Shown here piece by piece: positions 46,083-55,383 of a stretch of DNA of 64,000 bases (positions within the stretch are counted from its first letter, which is position 1; the number at the start of each line of letters is the position of its first letter). Position numbers and translations under genes: made by a program. The DNA is taken from assembly GCA_036001465.1 (NCBI GenBank), contig DASYUH010000032.1, positions 62,001-126,000 of the forward strand, written 5' to 3'. The notes under the pieces are model-generated. The model saw only the letters and a list, made by a program, of their open reading frames with translations, was not told where the DNA came from and made no database searches. The DNA comes from Candidatus Polarisedimenticolia bacterium (GTDB lineage: Bacteria; Acidobacteriota; Polarisedimenticolia; Gp22-AA2).

Positions 46083-47276
46083 TCAAGACGGGCGGCGCGC
46101 CCGGAACGCGAAGCGGGACAGGCGGCGGTCGGCCGCCAGGAGGGCCGCGACCTCGAGGAACCGCTGCTGTCCCTCGAACGTCGCCTCCCCTTCGATCGGC
46201 TTCAGGTCGGCGGATCTCCTTCCGCGGGCCGCCCGCCGCCGTGCCGCGAGTCGCGCCATGTTCTCGGTGCGGTCGAGGACCTCGATCCCTTCAAAGCCGG
46301 CATCGGCCAGGACCCGTTCGTCGGTCCCCGGCGGCACGAACAGGAAGAATCCGATCGAGCTTCGGATGGCGATCTCCTCGTGGGTGAGGGGGCCGGTCAC
46401 CACGATCGGGTCGGTGAAGACCAGGCGCCCGCCGGGGCGCAGGAGGCGGAGCCATTCCCGGAAGACCCGGTCGCGAGCGGGGAGGTGATTGACGGCATCG
46501 ATGCAGACGATCCCGTCGAACGAGGCGTCCGGAAAGGGAAGAGGGCGGCTCGCGTCCAGCCGATCGAACGTGACCCTGGAGGCGAGGCCGGCGCGCGCGG
46601 CGCCGGCCCGGGCCTCGGCGATCGCCTGATCGTGCGCGTCGACTCCCTGCACCGTGCATCCGGTGCGGGAGGCGATCCGGAGCGCCGGGCCTCCGGAACC
46701 GCAGGCGACGTCGAGGAGGCGGGCATCCGGAGACAGGGCGAGCCAGTCCAGGAAGAGATCCTGCTCGTCCGCGGTCAGCCAGCTGTTCTGGCCGATGTCC
46801 TCCCCGAAGGCCTCGGCCCTGATCTCCCTGTTCAGCGGAGAATCGAGGTGCCCGTACTGGGCGTCGTAGAGGCCGACGGTCGGGGGGCCCGCCGCGTTCC
46901 CCTTCCTGGCCCTGGCGTAGTCCTCCGCGCCCATGAAGTGCAGCGAGACGTACGGTGTGTCCCCGACCACCCAGCTGTCGTGCGGCACGGCGGGAACGTG
47001 GAACAGCGATCCCTCCCGGAGCTCGACGACCCGGCCGTCGTCGAACGCCACGGTCGCGACGCCCTGGAGGACCATCCCGACGTGCTCGACCTCGCAGCGC
47101 GACGCCCCTGCACCCGGGCCGACGTGCTGCGACCATCTCCAGCCCGGCTCGTAGCGCGCGCGGCCCAGGACGAGCGATCCGATGCGCACCAGCTCGAGGC
47201 GTCCCTTCTCGAAGGTGCGGACCTCGTCCGGATCGTCGAAGAGCCTCAGTGTGACCGTGTGGGCGTCGGAACCCAT
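46083..47276 (-). CDS. Cupin and SAM-dependent methyltransferase fusion
   Basis: A 397-residue fusion. The N-terminal 125 residues are a cupin-like beta-barrel (EPGWRWSQHVGP, EVEHVGMVLQG, VPHDSWVVGD). The C-terminal part is a class I methyltransferase: SAM motif I DVACGSGGPAL, then DASRPLPFPDASFDGIVCIDAVNHL, the type 11 form. The cupin has possible metal ligands (His and Glu in QHV...EVEHV). A -10 hexamer is seven bases before the ATG, with no RBS, so the mRNA may be leaderless. It may modify a small molecule that the cupin binds; the substrate is unknown. Confidence 0.88.
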   Translation of the reverse strand: MGSDAHTVTLRLFDDPDEVRTFEKGRLELVRIGSLVLGRARYEPGWRWSQHVGPGAGASRCEVEHVGMVLQGVATVAFDDGRVVELREGSLFHVPAVPHDSWVVGDTPYVSLHFMGAEDYARARKGNAAGPPTVGLYDAQYGHLDSPLNREIRAEAFGEDIGQNSWLTADEQDLFLDWLALSPDARLLDVACGSGGPALRIASRTGCTVQGVDAHDQAIAEARAGAARAGLASRVTFDRLDASRPLPFPDASFDGIVCIDAVNHLPARDRVFREWLRLLRPGGRLVFTDPIVVTGPLTHEEIAIRSSIGFFLFVPPGTDERVLADAGFEGIEVLDRTENMARLAARRRAARGRRSADLKPIEGEATFEGQQRFLEVAALLAADRRLSRFAFRARRPS

Positions 47277-47296: not shown

Positions 47297-48535
47297 TCAG
47301 TCCGTAGTACCCGGCAGGCGGATGAAATCCTGTTCTCCCCCCTCGAGGTACAGGACGAGCAGCAGGTAGTCCCGGAGCTGCCTCGTCAGGAGGAAGTGCT
47401 GCCGCACGCTCTCCCGGCCATTGGCCCCCAGCCAGTTGGCGTACGCCGGCTCCTTTAACAAGTGTTTGATCCAGTACGCCGTCCCTTCGATGCTGTGCGT
47501 CAGGATCCCGGAGTGCTTGTGGCCGATCTGGTTCGGCAGGCCGCCGACCGACCCGGCGATGACCGGCTTCCCCTTCCAGAGCGCCTCCGAGACGGTCAGC
47601 CCGAAGCCTTCCCGAAGGGACTTCTGAACAATGATCGTGGAGGCCCTCTGGATGGCGTTGATCTCCAGGTGGCTCGTGGGGGGAAGGCAGAGGACCCGCA
47701 CGCTGTCGTCCCCCTGCGCCCGCTCCCGGACCTCCGCGAGCACCTGCGCCCCCTCCGGGTCGTCGTCCGCCGGCCCGCCGACCAGGACCAGCCGCGCCAT
47801 GGCGGACGCCTTCGACAATCGGAAGGCCTCGATCACCCCCAGGGGATCCTTGAGACGATCGAAGCGGGAGACCTGCGTCACGAGCGCCCGGTCGGTCGGC
47901 AGTTCGAGACGCTGCAGGATGGCGTCGACCTCGCTCCCCTCGAGCTCCCGGTTCTTGTCGGACAGCGGATCGATGGAGGGGGAGATCAGCGCCTGCGGGA
48001 TCGGCAGGCTGCGGGCGAACGCCGGAGCGGAGAAGACGCAGGCGTCGTATCTCTCGACGTAAGGACGGAAGAACTCCCAGACGTCCGGATCGGGCCGCGA
48101 GAGGTCGATGTGGCAGCGCCAGATCCAGCGGTGCCCCGATCCGTTCCGCATCTGGACGAGGCCCGCGGGCTGGGGATCGTGGATGAACACGATGTCGGCG
48201 TCCAGGTTCAGCGAGGGGAGGTTCTCCCGGAGCGTCCGGTCATACGCCTCGTAGTCCCCCGCCGTCACCGTCTCGGCGGCCCCGTGGAGCGCATTGTGGA
48301 ATCGCTTGGTGGCCGCGTGGAAGGCCTCCCCTCCCCTGATGACCTCCCAGCGGGCGTCCAGCCCCAGCTCCCGCATGAGGGGAACCATCCGGCTCAGGAT
48401 CTCGGCCACCCCTCCGCCGACCGCCGTCGAGTTCACGTTCAGGAGCGAACGGCCCGTGAGGCGCCCCGCGAGCAGGTGGAGCTCGTCGAGCGTGTCCGCC
48501 CCGACGATGTCGCGATAGTCGTCAAGCCCCGGCAC
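47297..48535 (-). CDS. treT: Trehalose synthase, TreT-type GT4 glycosyltransferase
   Basis: A 412-residue GT-B retaining glycosyltransferase. The segment LLNVNSTAVGGGVAEIL is typical of the TreT/trehalose synthase group, and the E-x7-E motif (REGFGLTVSE) binds the nucleotide sugar. It should make trehalose from NDP-glucose and glucose, reversibly in archaeal homologues. The GTG at 48535 has GGAGGAG upstream and overlaps the end of the DUF5752 gene by 14 bases. This is the last gene of the trehalose operon. The family call is strong; the direction of use is not known. Confidence 0.85.
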   Translation of the reverse strand: MPGLDDYRDIVGADTLDELHLLAGRLTGRSLLNVNSTAVGGGVAEILSRMVPLMRELGLDARWEVIRGGEAFHAATKRFHNALHGAAETVTAGDYEAYDRTLRENLPSLNLDADIVFIHDPQPAGLVQMRNGSGHRWIWRCHIDLSRPDPDVWEFFRPYVERYDACVFSAPAFARSLPIPQALISPSIDPLSDKNRELEGSEVDAILQRLELPTDRALVTQVSRFDRLKDPLGVIEAFRLSKASAMARLVLVGGPADDDPEGAQVLAEVRERAQGDDSVRVLCLPPTSHLEINAIQRASTIIVQKSLREGFGLTVSEALWKGKPVIAGSVGGLPNQIGHKHSGILTHSIEGTAYWIKHLLKEPAYANWLGANGRESVRQHFLLTRQLRDYLLLVLYLEGGEQDFIRLPGTTD

Positions 48536-49202
48536 GGGAGTGCTCCTCCAGCCGCCGGTCCACCATCGTGATGAGCATCGATCGCAGCCCTTCCAGGGTG
48601 TGGGTGTAGGGATCGAGGTTCGAGACCTTCCTGGCCAGGGCGGGCTCGTCCAGCTCCCCCTCGAGCCAGGTCGCGAAATCATTGTGCCCCAGGGGAGGGC
48701 GCAGCAGGGACTCGAAGAGGTGCAGGTAGAGGCTCGACGGGCTGACCCTCCTCAGGCAGCGCGCGAAGCCGGCGAGATCGCGGGCCTCGTGCGCGGTCGG
48801 GACCGAGAACCGGATGGCCTGCATGAAGTGAAACTCCTTCCCCTCGGGGACCTCCCCGCCGTTCCCCCGGTCCGCGCCGCCTCGCCTGATCGCCTCGACC
48901 AGAGCGCGCTTCAGATCGTCGAGTGAATCGAACGTCAGGGTGTCGACCGACGCCAGCTGCTCTCCCAGCCTCTCGTCTCCCAGGACGTTCGTGACCCAGT
49001 ACGCGAAGTCGTTCGGAGGCTCGGGCACGAGGTACTGGTGCTGCCGCAGGAAGCGATACGTGTGCTGGTAGATGACCGGGTCGGGGGCGGCCTCGAGATG
49101 GCCGAGCAGCTCCCCGAGGTTCCTGGCCTTGAGCCCGGTCAGGCGGGTGAGGCAGAGCCGCGTGAAGAAACGGAACGGCCGGCGCGCCCGCGCGAGCTTC
49201 AT
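48522..49202 (-). CDS. DUF5752 family protein
   Basis: A 226-residue helical protein without signal or membrane segments. Motifs are YQHTYRFLRQHQYL, PNDFAYWVTN and GHNDFATWLEGELDEPALA, repeated in part as two similar halves, as in the DUF5752 family. Members are often encoded next to trehalose synthesis genes; the function is unknown. Its ATG overlaps the otsB stop (ATGA) and its 3' end overlaps treT, so it is probably made in step with both enzymes. Confidence 0.82.
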   Translation of the reverse strand: MKLARARRPFRFFTRLCLTRLTGLKARNLGELLGHLEAAPDPVIYQHTYRFLRQHQYLVPEPPNDFAYWVTNVLGDERLGEQLASVDTLTFDSLDDLKRALVEAIRRGGADRGNGGEVPEGKEFHFMQAIRFSVPTAHEARDLAGFARCLRRVSPSSLYLHLFESLLRPPLGHNDFATWLEGELDEPALARKVSNLDPYTHTLEGLRSMLITMVDRRLEEHSRAGA

Positions 49203-49936
49203 CCTCTCCCCTCCAGGGCGGCACGGGTCTCGCGGAGGAACCGCGCCACCTGCCCCTGGTCGATCAGGTAGTAATCCGCCCGGGAGGACTTCAGGCGGCC
49301 GACCCGGATGCTGAGCCCTCTTCCCTTCAGGGCTGAGAAGATGTCCTCGTCGGTCGTGTCGTCACCCAGCGCGATCGGAAACGGATTTCCCAGGTGCCGC
49401 ATCAGGTAGAGGGACGCGGCTCCCTTGTGCCACTTCACTCGAGGGAGGAGCTCCCAGACCTTCCTCCCGGCCCCCCACCTCACCGGAAGCCCGGACGCAT
49501 CCACCCGGATGCGGGAGCGCAGCCATGCCAGGGAACGCCGGGAGCGCCGCGCCACCCGCCGGTAGTGCACGCTCAGGGTCAGCCCCTTGTTCTCGAGGGA
49601 CGCGCCCGGGACGCGCCCGAGATCGCTCTCGATCCGGGCGGCCAGATCCTGGACGATCGACCGCCGCGCGACCGCCCCGGCATGCCGGAACGAGATTCCC
49701 GGACCCGCGATCTCCAGTCCGTGGTTTCCGCCGTAGTAGAGGGCGGGCATATCGACGCGCGCTTGCAGATCCTTCAGCGATCGCCCGCTCAGGACCGCCA
49801 CCCCGACCCCCGGCCGGGCCTGGAGCGAGCCGAGGAGCCCGCGGATCTCCTCCGAGAGCCGCGCCGCGTCGTTCCTCCCGGACAGCGGGGCCAGGGTGCC
49901 GTCGAAATCGAACAGCAGGAGGACGCGCTTCTGCAT
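49199..49936 (-). CDS. otsB: Trehalose-6-phosphate phosphatase
   Basis: A 245-residue HAD-superfamily phosphatase. Motif I is LLFDFDGTLAP, the trehalose-phosphatase marker YYGGNHGLEI is present, and motif IV is GDDTTDEDIF. It removes phosphate from trehalose 6-phosphate. I use the ATG at 49936; a GTG at 49984 is possible but its AGGAG is too close. The gene follows otsA by 52 bases and overlaps the DUF5752 gene by four bases (ATGA). Confidence 0.93.
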   Translation of the reverse strand: MQKRVLLLFDFDGTLAPLSGRNDAARLSEEIRGLLGSLQARPGVGVAVLSGRSLKDLQARVDMPALYYGGNHGLEIAGPGISFRHAGAVARRSIVQDLAARIESDLGRVPGASLENKGLTLSVHYRRVARRSRRSLAWLRSRIRVDASGLPVRWGAGRKVWELLPRVKWHKGAASLYLMRHLGNPFPIALGDDTTDEDIFSALKGRGLSIRVGRLKSSRADYYLIDQGQVARFLRETRAALEGRG

Positions 49937-49988
49937 CGCGATCCGGCCCCTGACTCGCGGCCAATCCGGCCACAGGCTCCGCACGCTC

Positions 49989-52247
49989 CTACTCGCTCCT
50001 CGCCACGACCTGATCGAGGCGCACCTGCGACAGCGCTTCGATCAGGTTGCCTGCCCAGCGATAGATATTGTGCTCCCGGACCGTCTCCCTCATCCGGGCC
50101 ATGCGAGTGGCCTGATCCTCCCGGCTCATCTGCAGCGCGCTGTCAATCGCACCCGCCATCTCCTCGATGTCGTAGGGGTTGACGATGAGGGCGTCCCGCA
50201 GCTCTCGCGACGCGCCGGTGAAGCGACTCAGGATCAGGACCCCTGCGCCGTCGTCGCGCGAGGCGACGAACTCCTTGGCGACCAGGTTCATCCCGTCGTG
50301 CAGGGACGTGACCATGCAGAAGTCGGCGTGCCGGTAGAACGGCAGGATCTCCCGGTGGCTGTGGTGTCTCTTCAGGAAGACGATCGGCTTCCAGTCCCTC
50401 GCCTGGAATTTCCAGTTGATGCGCTCCGCCTCGGACTCCACTTCCGCCAGGAAGTCGTGGTAGCGCTTGATGTGCGTGCGGCTCGGCGCCCCGAGCTGGA
50501 CGAAGGTCAACTCCCCCCGGAACGTGGGATGGATCTCCAGGAAGCGCTCGATCGATCGGAAGCGCTCGAGGACCCCCTTGGTGTAGTCCATCCGATCCAC
50601 TCCGATGCCCAGATACCTTCCGGTGATTCCCATTTCCTTCAGGAAGGTCTCGCGATCGGTTTCCGACGCGCGATCGGGCGCCACGTCCTGAAAGGTTTCG
50701 GGAAACGCCACGCTGATCGGGTAGGGATGGACGGCCGTGGCGTGGCCCGAGCGCCTGACCTCGAACCGCTCCCAGTCGACACGCGATTCCAGCGTGCGAT
50801 CGACGGTGTCGAGAAAGTTGTTGCAGTGAACCTGGGTATGGAATCCGATGAGGTCCGCCCCCAGCATTCCCTGCAGGAGCTCCCTCCTCCAGGGGCAGAC
50901 CCCGAAGGCCTCCGGGTTCGGCCAGGGAATGTGCCAGAAGATCGCGATCCGCGCGTCCGGCCGCCGCTGCTTGAGAAGCTCGGGCAGGAGCGCGAGATGG
51001 TAGTCCTGGATCAGGATGCACGGCTCCTGCAAGCCCTCCATTTCTTTCGCGGCGGCGTCCGCGAACTTCTGATTGGCCTTCTCGTAGTGGGCCCAGTCCT
51101 CCGGCCTGAAGACGGGCCGCGTGTGGGCGATGTGGCAGAGAGGCCAGAGCCCTTCGTTGGCCAGCCCGTAGTAATAGCCGTCCTCCTCCTCCTTCGTCAG
51201 GGCCACTCTCCTGAGGGTGTAGAGCGGGTCGTCGGCCGGCACCCTGATGCGGTTCTCGCGATCGACGACCTGCCAGTCGGCATCGCCGGCTCCATGGGCG
51301 ATCCAGGTGCCGCCGCTCGCCCGCATGATCGGATCGAGGGCGGTGACCAGCCCCCCGGCCGGCACGATGCACTCGACGCTTCGCCCCCGGCGGACGTGCA
51401 TGTACGGCTCCCGGTTTGAGACGACGAGGAGCGGCCTTCCCTGCAGCCTGTGACGCACGTGCTCGGCGAGCCTGTCCGGCGTCCACCGCGCCTCGCCGGC
51501 CTGCCTGAGCCTCGCCTCCTCTTCGACTGCGGCCCGGGCGCGGGCCAGCTGCCGGGAGAACGTCTCGACTTCCCGCGTCAGGGGGGAGAACAAGTGAACG
51601 TTCGGCGGCGCCGGCCGCAGGGCCGGCTCTCCCGTGCGCAGCTGCTTCATCCAGAGCGCCATCTGGGCGATGGGGCCTGCGATGCTGAAACGCAGGACGA
51701 GAATCGTCACGAGCACGATGAGGGCCGTCTGCGCCAGGGCCATCAGGAAGGCGCGGCGCCAGGCCGATCCGAGGCGCGGCGGGGCCGGGGTCGGCCCGTG
51801 CACAACCGCCAGAGCGCCCAGCGGCTCGCCGTGGATCGTGAGCGGCAGGGCGTCGACCTGGATCGACCGGTCCTTCAGGCCGGCACTCCCTCTCGCCGGT
51901 GACCCGTTCCTGAGCGCCTGGCGCACCGGATCGGGCGGGGAGGAAGGGGCCGCCTGGAGCCGGGACGAGCGGGAGATGAGTTCCCCCTTCGGGCCATAGA
52001 CTGCCAGACCGGCGACTCCTCCCCCGTCCCCGACGGCCTCCGCTAGACGGTCGAGGCCCTTCCGGTCGCCCCGTTCCACGAGCTCCAGCACCACCCCCTC
52101 GAGACCGTCGGCCAGGAGCCTCGCCCGGCGCGCGAAGGCCTCCTCCTGCGCGCGGCCGTCACGGCTTACCTGGAAGAACGCCCCCAGGGAAGCCAGCGCG
52201 ATGGCGACGATGGCCAGCGAGACGACGATTCTGCGGGTGATGCGCAT
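49989..52247 (-). CDS. otsA: Membrane-anchored trehalose-6-phosphate synthase with sensor and HAMP segment
   Basis: A 752-residue fusion. Residues 1-260 look like a sensor-kinase front end: TM1 (VVSLAIVAIALASLGAFF), a periplasmic region of about 120 residues, TM2 (FLMALAQTALIVLVTILVL), then a HAMP-like stretch and a helical linker. The GT20 catalytic domain follows: LLVVSNREPYMH, PAGGLVTAL, FWHIPWPNPE, LIQDYHLALLP and VDRMDYTKG. NREPY replaces the usual NRLP, so the acceptor could differ from glucose 6-phosphate. It is first in the operon with otsB, the DUF5752 gene and treT. Confidence 0.9.
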   Translation of the reverse strand: MRITRRIVVSLAIVAIALASLGAFFQVSRDGRAQEEAFARRARLLADGLEGVVLELVERGDRKGLDRLAEAVGDGGGVAGLAVYGPKGELISRSSRLQAAPSSPPDPVRQALRNGSPARGSAGLKDRSIQVDALPLTIHGEPLGALAVVHGPTPAPPRLGSAWRRAFLMALAQTALIVLVTILVLRFSIAGPIAQMALWMKQLRTGEPALRPAPPNVHLFSPLTREVETFSRQLARARAAVEEEARLRQAGEARWTPDRLAEHVRHRLQGRPLLVVSNREPYMHVRRGRSVECIVPAGGLVTALDPIMRASGGTWIAHGAGDADWQVVDRENRIRVPADDPLYTLRRVALTKEEEDGYYYGLANEGLWPLCHIAHTRPVFRPEDWAHYEKANQKFADAAAKEMEGLQEPCILIQDYHLALLPELLKQRRPDARIAIFWHIPWPNPEAFGVCPWRRELLQGMLGADLIGFHTQVHCNNFLDTVDRTLESRVDWERFEVRRSGHATAVHPYPISVAFPETFQDVAPDRASETDRETFLKEMGITGRYLGIGVDRMDYTKGVLERFRSIERFLEIHPTFRGELTFVQLGAPSRTHIKRYHDFLAEVESEAERINWKFQARDWKPIVFLKRHHSHREILPFYRHADFCMVTSLHDGMNLVAKEFVASRDDGAGVLILSRFTGASRELRDALIVNPYDIEEMAGAIDSALQMSREDQATRMARMRETVREHNIYRWAGNLIEALSQVRLDQVVARSE

Positions 52248-53853: not shown

Positions 53854-55383
53854 ATGCGAACCCGGCTGTTGCTCCCTCTCATGCTGGCCTCGGGCGTCCT
53901 GTATCCCGGCTCGTTTCTTCGGGCCCAGCTCGTCTTCTTCGATCCGGTGACCCTGGCCGTCGGCTCGGGTCCCCGAGGCATGGCGACGGCCGACCTCAAC
54001 GGCGACGGCCGTGCCGACGTCGTGGTCGCCAACTTTGACTCGATGAACCTGACCGTCTATCTCGGGATGGGGCCCGCCGGCTTCGCCACGCCGCGGACCA
54101 TCCCGGTCGGCGGTGGGAACCCGACATACGTGACCATCGGAGATTTCAACCGGGACGGAAGGCTCGATCTCATCACCTCCCTGAGTTTCCAGAGGCTCAT
54201 TTCCTTCAAGCCTGGAGACGGGGCAGGTGGGTTCGGCCCCGATCGGTTCATCGATCCGGGACTGCTCCCGCTCCTCACCGTGGCGGCCGATTTCAATGGC
54301 GACGGGCGTCTGGATCTGGCGGCCGCGTCGACGGCGTACGCCAACCTGCAAATCCTGCTCGGGGACGGCACTGGCGGCTTCACACCGGGTGCGAGTTTCG
54401 GTCCGTACCAGAACTTCGGCCTCGCCGTTGCCGATTTCAACGAAGACGGACAGCCCGATCTGGCGGTGCCTGACACCCGCAACAATCGGGTGAACATCCT
54501 GCTTGGGGACGGCACCGGGAGCTTCACCTCCAGCTCGATGCCAAGCGGAGCTGTCGCACCGAGGGCCGCCCTGGTCGCGGACTTCGACCAGGATGGAAAC
54601 GTCGATCTCGCGGTCATGCACAACATCTCGCCCATCATTTCCGTGTTTCCGGGGAACGGATCGGGAGGGTTCGGGAGTCCAACAAGCGCCACCGCTCCAA
54701 ACGCGGTGGCGTCGTTCGCCGTCCTCGACGTCGATGGCGACGCGAACCTCGATTTGGCCACGACGTTGGGCCCGACGACCGGCATCCTCCTCGGAAACGG
54801 TGCCCTGGGCTTCGGCCCGCCGCAGTCGATGCCGGGTGGCGGAACGTCCCTGATCGTCGGAGACTTCAATGCCGACGGGAGCCCCGACCTTTCGGCGATC
54901 GTCGGCAACCCCCCCGATAGCATCGTCGTTCTTCTCAACCTCACCTATGACACGGACGGAGACGCCGTCCTGGACTCGTTCGATAACTGTCTTACGGTGC
55001 CGAACCCCGAGCAGGTCGACGTCGACCACGACGGGCCAGGTGACGCGTGCGACAACTGCATCCCACTCTTCAATGATGACCAGGTGGACCGGGACGGCAA
55101 CGGCACCGGGGACGCGTGCGACGCGCTGGTCGCCTTTCTGTCGACCGTGCCGGAAATCGCCTCCCTGCAGGCGGATCTTGAGGCCCTGACCACCCGGATC
55201 GGGCTTCTCGAGTCCCAGCTCCTGTCGAGCCAGGAGCGATTCGTGCCGCTCGAGATTTCGGATCGGACACAGGCCGGCGACATCGCCATTCTGAAGAGCC
55301 AGGTGGCGGATCTGCAGCAGAAGGTCCTGTTTCTAATCAACACGCTGTCGATCGTAAGGCCGCGGCCCACGCTCGTGCCCTAG
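53854..55383 (+). CDS. Secreted FG-GAP/VCBS repeat protein with thrombospondin type 3-like Ca-binding repeats
   Basis: A 509-residue exported protein. After a signal peptide (LLLPLMLASGVLYPG) come about seven VCBS/FG-GAP units with the calcium loop DxNxDGxxD (DLNGDGRADV, DFNRDGRLDL, DFNGDGRLDL, DFNEDGQPDL, DFDQDGNVDL), likely a beta-propeller. Next are two thrombospondin type 3-like motifs (DTDGDAVLDSFDNC, DRDGNGTGDACD). The last 80 residues form a coiled coil (LQADLEALTTRIGLLESQ). The final tail (RPRPTLVP) is unrelated to a sorting signal. Adhesion or cell-surface binding is possible; the role is unknown. Confidence 0.85.
   Translation: MRTRLLLPLMLASGVLYPGSFLRAQLVFFDPVTLAVGSGPRGMATADLNGDGRADVVVANFDSMNLTVYLGMGPAGFATPRTIPVGGGNPTYVTIGDFNRDGRLDLITSLSFQRLISFKPGDGAGGFGPDRFIDPGLLPLLTVAADFNGDGRLDLAAASTAYANLQILLGDGTGGFTPGASFGPYQNFGLAVADFNEDGQPDLAVPDTRNNRVNILLGDGTGSFTSSSMPSGAVAPRAALVADFDQDGNVDLAVMHNISPIISVFPGNGSGGFGSPTSATAPNAVASFAVLDVDGDANLDLATTLGPTTGILLGNGALGFGPPQSMPGGGTSLIVGDFNADGSPDLSAIVGNPPDSIVVLLNLTYDTDGDAVLDSFDNCLTVPNPEQVDVDHDGPGDACDNCIPLFNDDQVDRDGNGTGDACDALVAFLSTVPEIASLQADLEALTTRIGLLESQLLSSQERFVPLEISDRTQAGDIAILKSQVADLQQKVLFLINTLSIVRPRPTLVP

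Follow-up and report, generated by a model that had tools for sequence, protein, structure and literature searches.

The DUF5752 protein encoded in a compact trehalose operon of Candidatus Polarisedimenticolia bacterium (phylum Acidobacteriota) belongs to a family that is a dedicated genomic partner of one particular clade of the GT4-type trehalose synthase TreT. The window, a stretch of 64,000 nucleotides from contig DASYUH010000032.1 (assembly GCA_036001465.1), carries on its minus strand, in the direction of transcription, genes for a double-BON protein, a small "barrel" protein, OtsA, OtsB, DUF5752 and TreT. The initial annotation, made from the sequence of the window, proposed that DUF5752 acts with one of the two trehalose routes encoded here, OtsA-OtsB or TreT; its genomic partner proves to be TreT, and the case for OtsB does not hold. 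For a family of unknown function, this provides a concrete partner, a relative with a solved structure (OrfY) and a physical connection to mechanosensitive channels. Each enzyme of the operon is of a known kind, and what is new is the pairing with a TreT clade, the fusion to MscS and an OtsA of receptor type.

Pairing of DUF5752 with one TreT clade

Three samples were surveyed: 247 genomes of the window's phylum (Acidobacteriota), 148 genomes of the phylum of the genome bearing locus L006 (Nitrospirota lineage), and the best 80 of 295 relative loci by DUF5752, drawn from Elusimicrobia, Omnitrophota, Planctomycetes including Brocadia, Nitrospirae, Acidobacteria and Colwellbacteria. The samples overlap, the TreTs of L142 and L131 being identical to those of L002 and L010, and L204 coming from the genome of L006. 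DUF5752 rows with an E value of at most 1e-40 were kept for the pair counts. This leaves out, for Acidobacteriota, a match at a contig end with no treT match on its contig (G034:C25:10-306, profile 3-101), two overlapping pieces in G095:C4, a weak row in G020 (103-residue frame) and half-length hits within reading frames some 820-1356 residues long; for the Nitrospirota lineage, it leaves out fragments in G285, G305 and G325 and half-length hits within frames some 577-665 residues long. Of the 25 Acidobacteriota genes kept, one, G034:C203, is truncated by the start of its contig (profile 58-208).

DUF5752 is present in 24 of the 247 Acidobacteriota genomes (25 genes) and TreT in 31, all 24 lying within the 31 (Fisher p 1.9e-27). 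A treT match follows at most 400 base pairs (bp) downstream on the same strand for 25/25 of these genes. The Nitrospirota-lineage sample gives the same picture, with DUF5752 in 43 of 148 genomes (47 genes), TreT in 49 and all 43 within the 49 (Fisher p 3.6e-31). Here treT lies downstream on the same strand for 46 of the 47 genes, directly adjacent in 35 and with one gene between in 11; the 47th gene ends 25 bases from a contig end, and treT begins another contig of that genome. The 11 non-adjacent pairs are separated by about 1.8-2.3 kilobases (kb) between the DUF5752 and treT matches, and the intervening gene is treS in the 10 that were fetched (NCBIfam TIGR02456, E 1.5e-280 and 1.1e-281 in the two scanned). 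No genome in either phylum sample holds a counted DUF5752 without TreT, and TreT occurs without DUF5752 in seven Acidobacteriota and six Nitrospirota-lineage genomes. At 79 of the best 80 relatives, a same-strand treT lies no more than 6 kb from DUF5752. The exception, L043 (Brocadia pituitae), has treT about 9 kb downstream with other genes between; the intervening segment (L043:11008-18768) holds genes that, from sequence reading only, resemble a restriction-modification set. The DUF5752-treT order is far beyond chance, and the pairing is near-obligate.

The second trehalose route near DUF5752-treT varies between OtsAB, TreS, TreYZ and none seen. A same-strand otsB gene was found no more than 6 kb away at at least 64/80 relative loci, at least 16/25 Acidobacteriota loci and at least 7/29 Nitrospirota-lineage loci. 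Such neighbour counts are lower bounds, with one or both flanks of DUF5752 shorter than 6 kb at 52/80, 9/25 and 28/29 loci, and the 29 (of 47 Nitrospirota-lineage genes) for which wide context was obtained were partly picked for odd features, which makes their counts non-random. We rejected otsB as the partner, since it is often not nearby. At some loci treS, treY or treZ is present, TreY being confirmed at L168, L175 and L138 and TreZ at L175 and L138. Because treT is constant while otsB, treS, treY and treZ vary, DUF5752 goes with TreT, whatever other trehalose route is nearby. The annotation's question of whether DUF5752 always neighbours treT or otsB is thus answered in favour of treT in these samples, and the contrary outcome, DUF5752 mostly away from trehalose genes, was not seen for whole genes, the copies found elsewhere being half-length.

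Several individual loci add detail. At L168:1705-10995 (minus strand), a co-directional run comprises TreY, a 205-residue open reading frame (ORF), DUF5752, TreS, TreT, GT2 and an MscS-like gene. In one genome of the window's phylum, G095:C4:183529-184351 holds a second copy of the DUF5752-TreT pair, which is broken and next to a treT scrap. DUF5752 gave no match on plasmids and none that was confirmed on viral contigs; a TreT relative on a Halopiger xanaduensis plasmid (L120) has no DUF5752 match and stands among several universal stress protein genes.

The partnered TreTs form one clade. A tree of 97 rows, including 79 of the 112 partnered TreTs (L030-L081 being sampled at one in four), was rooted at its midpoint and carries SH-aLRT support only, with some long branches. 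All 79 partnered rows, together with the solved TreT-type enzyme 6ZJ4, fall in a single starred branch. The partner label changes three times on this tree, against a mean of 16.9 for shuffled labels, and 0/500 shuffles were as low. The unpartnered rows inside the branch are L043 and L144, the contig of the latter breaking off, on the upstream side, some 250 bp from the treT match. The two genes have also been lost together, in three genomes (L206-L208): the first 39-44 residues of DUF5752 are left behind MscS and treT is gone, with a 37-residue scrap in L207. At L206 the DUF5752 remnant is followed by GT2 and an MscS-like gene.

DUF5752 architecture, channel fusions and a receptor-like OtsA

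The window protein matches the DUF5752 family (PF19027) at 188.7 bits, against a gathering threshold of 23, over profile positions 2-207 of 208. Among solved structures, the one relative found is OrfY of Thermoproteus tenax (PDB 4CSO), which matches from end to end, with E 1.4e-18 by phmmer and E 1.5e-44 by profile. An AlphaFold2 (AF2) model of the window protein, with a predicted local distance difference test (pLDDT) score of 89.6, superposes on 4CSO with a template modelling (TM) score of 0.71-0.74 and a Z score of 18.9 over 211 residues (Foldseek, VIA-align 2). The window protein and OrfY are therefore of the same family over their full length and share a fold; unlike the window protein, OrfY is archaeal and was named a transcription factor by its depositors. 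The same two programs gave no clear fold neighbour other than 4CSO, a weak test that shows no absence. Profiles of the two halves of DUF5752 align with each other (probability 99.7, E 4e-26), and the model predicts a long strand followed by helices, twice; by profile and model, the protein is an internal duplication.

Half-length copies occur in larger proteins. In 6/6 scanned Acidobacteriota proteins of about 1000 residues (L105-L110), a half DUF5752 is placed between a receiver-like region, below the Pfam cut-off in three of the six, and a PPDK_N domain of phosphoenolpyruvate-synthase type; some of the host genomes are without TreT. In 5/5 scanned Nitrospirota-lineage proteins of 574-608 residues (L163-L167), the C-terminal half is combined with a HAD phosphatase and a HerA-type ATPase, the DUF5752 match being below the cut-off in two. 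This behaviour suggests a portable regulatory or binding module.

Four Nitrospirota-lineage genomes encode DUF5752 fused to an MscS channel: L173 (5474-6868, minus strand), L194 (5152-6546, plus strand), L195 and L196. In each fusion frame, of 458-465 residues, the membrane part and the beta domain of MscS precede an entire DUF5752; the three fusions scanned gave no match to the MscS C-terminal domain, and the fusions sit in otsAB-treT neighbourhoods. For at least 13 others among the 47 Nitrospirota-lineage genes, a same-strand MscS profile match lies upstream of DUF5752 and ends 348-378 bp from it; at the seven such loci that were fetched, and in L174, the MscS and DUF5752 genes range from a 7-bp overlap to 50 bp apart. 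DUF5752-bearing genomes of this sample hold zero to six MscS matches among those listed, and we estimate such closeness to be rare by chance, well under 1 in 100 per gene. Because DUF5752 pairs with TreT and in some relatives is fused to MscS, these arrangements suggest that it ties water stress to trehalose metabolism.

The window's OtsA, whose N-terminal membrane extension the initial annotation did not mention, is a trehalose-6-phosphate synthase with a receptor-like membrane architecture. Its GT20 domain scores 396.1 bits against a Pfam cut-off of 32.5, and the equivalog cut-off of TIGR02400 is not reached (434.7 vs 564.85 bits). About 255 residues precede the catalytic domain, with hydropathy peaks, taken as predicted transmembrane segments, at 1-19 and 167-185. 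The model of this region (pLDDT 84.2) contains a long helix, a Cache/PAS-like alpha/beta domain, a second long helix and HAMP-like helices, which corresponds to a Cache-HAMP layout in which two predicted transmembrane segments flank an extracytoplasmic domain. Its best fold match is the sensor kinase WalK (9a5d, rank 1, TMq 0.65), followed by crystal structures of the WalK sensor domain. The order of elements is like that of WalK-type Cache-HAMP sensor kinases; unlike in WalK, the output domain is the synthase, not a histidine kinase. Among 65 loci where OtsA gave a long match, an N-terminal extension of at least 150 residues is present at 37, all with two predicted transmembrane segments, and another five have extensions of 74-137 residues. 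Pfam matches in the relatives' OtsA include sCache_3_2 in 20/39 and HAMP in 8/39. The region is thus predicted to be a membrane-bound sensor-like module of Cache-HAMP type, which may sense an external signal. No paper that combines trehalose-6-phosphate synthase, a HAMP domain and otsA was found in the open-licence library searched.

Proposed role of DUF5752 and rival explanations

We favour, at about even confidence, a reading in which DUF5752 is the partner of the TreT clade, most likely binding TreT and tuning to osmotic state how active that enzyme is or where it is located, with MscS taking part in some lineages; a role as regulator or adaptor is plausible. OtsA and OtsB would make trehalose from nucleoside diphosphate (NDP)-glucose and glucose 6-phosphate, with an external signal perhaps setting OtsA through its sensor region. 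TreT would make trehalose or return it to NDP-glucose, and DUF5752 would adjust TreT, most simply by binding, and tie it to osmotic state, through the MscS channel in some lineages. The operon would then probably serve osmotic or desiccation stress. Such an arrangement would open to test how bacteria may link water stress directly to the making of a protective sugar, and why one operon holds several trehalose routes. A bolder version, tentative and rather doubtful, is a mechano-osmotic unit: membrane tension would set a TreT-binding DUF5752, directly where it is the MscS C-terminal domain and elsewhere via a neighbouring channel or a free protein, so that turgor would switch TreT on, off or to trehalose breakdown, and a Cache-HAMP receptor with a trehalose-6-phosphate synthase output would let an extracellular signal set synthesis with no transcription step.

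Several observations weigh against the favoured reading. The sole named homologue, OrfY, carries the transcription factor label, and the half-length copies reside in proteins that are not known to be connected with trehalose. MscS was not seen near most DUF5752 genes (same strand within 6 kb at at least 16/80, at least 4/25 and at least 13/29 loci), and the one PF00924 match of the window's genome is on another contig. Only four alignment columns separate the partnered TreTs from 14 unpartnered ones, and no interface stands out. As to the sensor-like OtsA, the extension is shorter than 50 residues in 23/65 matches, the window's OtsA itself has no Cache or HAMP Pfam match at E 0.01, and 9a5d, ranked first among the fold matches, is an integrative model.

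The main rival holds that DUF5752 is a DNA-binding transcription factor controlling the trehalose operon, which we judge unlikely. It draws on the molecule name of 4CSO ("OrfY protein, transcription factor") together with the profile and fold matches described above. Searches of an open-licence library for papers about OrfY or DUF5752 found none. The family is mostly neutral to acidic, with a median isoelectric point of 6.4, values below 7 in 79/99 sequences and 7.1 for the window protein, and the four MscS fusions would be an unusual place for a transcription factor, both being indirect arguments. The half modules also stand beside a receiver and PPDK_N or beside HAD and a HerA-type ATPase, and no DNA-binding domain was among the Pfam matches of these proteins.

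The near-perfect pairing with one TreT clade, the joint loss and the tight gene coupling would be expected of a structural subunit or folding partner that the TreT clade requires, with no regulatory role. This we regard as improbable: 6ZJ4, a solved enzyme of the same branch, is listed under its own name, and the fusion to MscS suggests more than a folding aid. An enzyme or small-molecule binder in trehalose metabolism, with a sugar phosphate or a nucleotide sugar as a conceivable ligand, is the remaining proposal and is very unlikely. Conserved polar and aromatic residues of the two halves (D65, F66, W69, H161, D175 and W179, invariant in 99 DUF5752 sequences) would suit it, but they may be core positions of the repeat; the fold matches include no conspicuous enzyme, again a weak test, and a side module fused in several proteins fits a binding module better than a catalyst. 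Binding to and adjustment of TreT is the reading we retain.

The operon in the window and its archaeal counterparts

The operon is compact, and the annotation's placing of otsA, otsB, DUF5752 and treT in one operon with overlapping genes is confirmed by head-to-tail minus-strand ORFs and their Pfam identities (Table 1). The interval first assigned to the two routes, 47297-49984, contains otsB, DUF5752 and treT; otsA falls outside it.

Table 1. Genes of the trehalose operon in the window and the two genes upstream, with positions counted from the first nucleotide of the window
Feature	Position	Strand	Evidence
Double-BON protein	53641-52937	-	ORF and Pfam
Small protein, termed barrel in the initial annotation	52854-52363	-	ORF; no Pfam match
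OtsA-type trehalose-6-phosphate synthase, 752 residues	49989..52247	-	Pfam Glyco_transf_20, E 2.9e-118
OtsA subregions: sensor-like, residues 1 to about 255; GT20, residues 274-740	49989..52247	-	
OtsB trehalose-6-phosphate phosphatase (HAD), 261 residues	49199..49984	-	Pfam Trehalose_PPase, E 2.6e-37
DUF5752 / OrfY-family protein, 226 residues, two tandem homologous halves	48522..49202	-	Pfam DUF5752, E 1.1e-55
TreT trehalose synthase (GT4)	47297..48535	-	Pfam TreT_GT1, E 6.4e-55; start taken as GTG 48535

DUF5752 does overlap both neighbours, as first described. The end of otsB and the start of DUF5752 share 4 bp. The treT ORF as listed (48682-47297, 461 residues) starts at an ATG 161 bp inside DUF5752; because relatives align only from about GTG 48535, ATG 48682 was rejected and is probably not the start, and the overlap is probably about 14 bp, not 161 bp. 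Judging from the translation, the real start of OtsB may be ATG 49936. The window's genome has a single DUF5752 match. Its closest relative by DUF5752 is L002 (Acidobacteria gp22), at 77%, and L002 has the same TreT, residue for residue, as G193, a genome from the family to which the window belongs.

OtsB passes the curated cut-off of the trehalose-phosphatase family TIGR00685 (135.3 vs 68.05 bits), and the N-terminal domain of TreT matches PF21269 at 185.2 bits against a cut-off of 27. The nearest solved relatives of the window's TreT are themselves TreTs (6ZJ4, E 4.9e-125; 2X6Q, E 7.8e-96). Its segment EGFGLTVSE aligns with the same region of both, so that the E-x7-E region, which we take to be the conserved catalytic motif of TreT-type GT4 enzymes, is present. 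The score against the NCBIfam equivalog NF041139 (TreT_Thcocales), 343.6 bits, is below the cut-off of 775, and the protein is therefore not filed under it. Some TreTs are reversible, and the window's enzyme is predicted to make trehalose from NDP-glucose and glucose, or to run in reverse.

Two archaeal systems offer comparison. Among the papers listed by literature searches on these architectures and judged by title or opening of the abstract, only PMC3634074 seemed relevant to them. T. tenax has a related arrangement, msc-gt-tpsp, in which the glycosyltransferase (GT) activates the synthase by complex formation, according to an excerpt of PMC3634074; trehalose-6-phosphate synthase/phosphatase (TPSP), a GT4 enzyme and a small mechanosensitive channel are encoded together. 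The TPSP of T. tenax is one fused protein, whereas OtsA and OtsB of the window are separate ORFs, and its GT is PimA-like (TTX_1305), whereas the GT4 of the window is TreT; the excerpt makes no mention of DUF5752 for the TPSP-GT complex (PMC3634074). Sulfolobus acidocaldarius, in the portion of PMC7688234 that we draw on, has several trehalose routes including TreT (Saci_1827), with a role in salt stress. There the trehalose genes bear distant gene numbers, no DUF5752 partner is mentioned in that portion, and TreY/TreZ accompany a GT4 trehalose-6-phosphate synthase, in contrast to the GT20 OtsA of the window (PMC7688234). As a control genome in our survey, S. acidocaldarius was matched by both the DUF5752 and TreT profiles.

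The flanking genes were the basis for an earlier suggestion that the BON and barrel genes extend the operon into a desiccation or osmotic stress island. This is not a general feature: homologues were present at only 1/80 loci, many of which are short, and the idea is supported only in that near relative, L002. Beyond these genes, an FG-GAP repeat protein with a weak match to thrombospondin type 3 repeats is encoded at 53854-55383 (plus strand). Just downstream of treT, at 46083-47276 (minus strand), lies a gene for a protein with methyltransferase and weak cupin matches.

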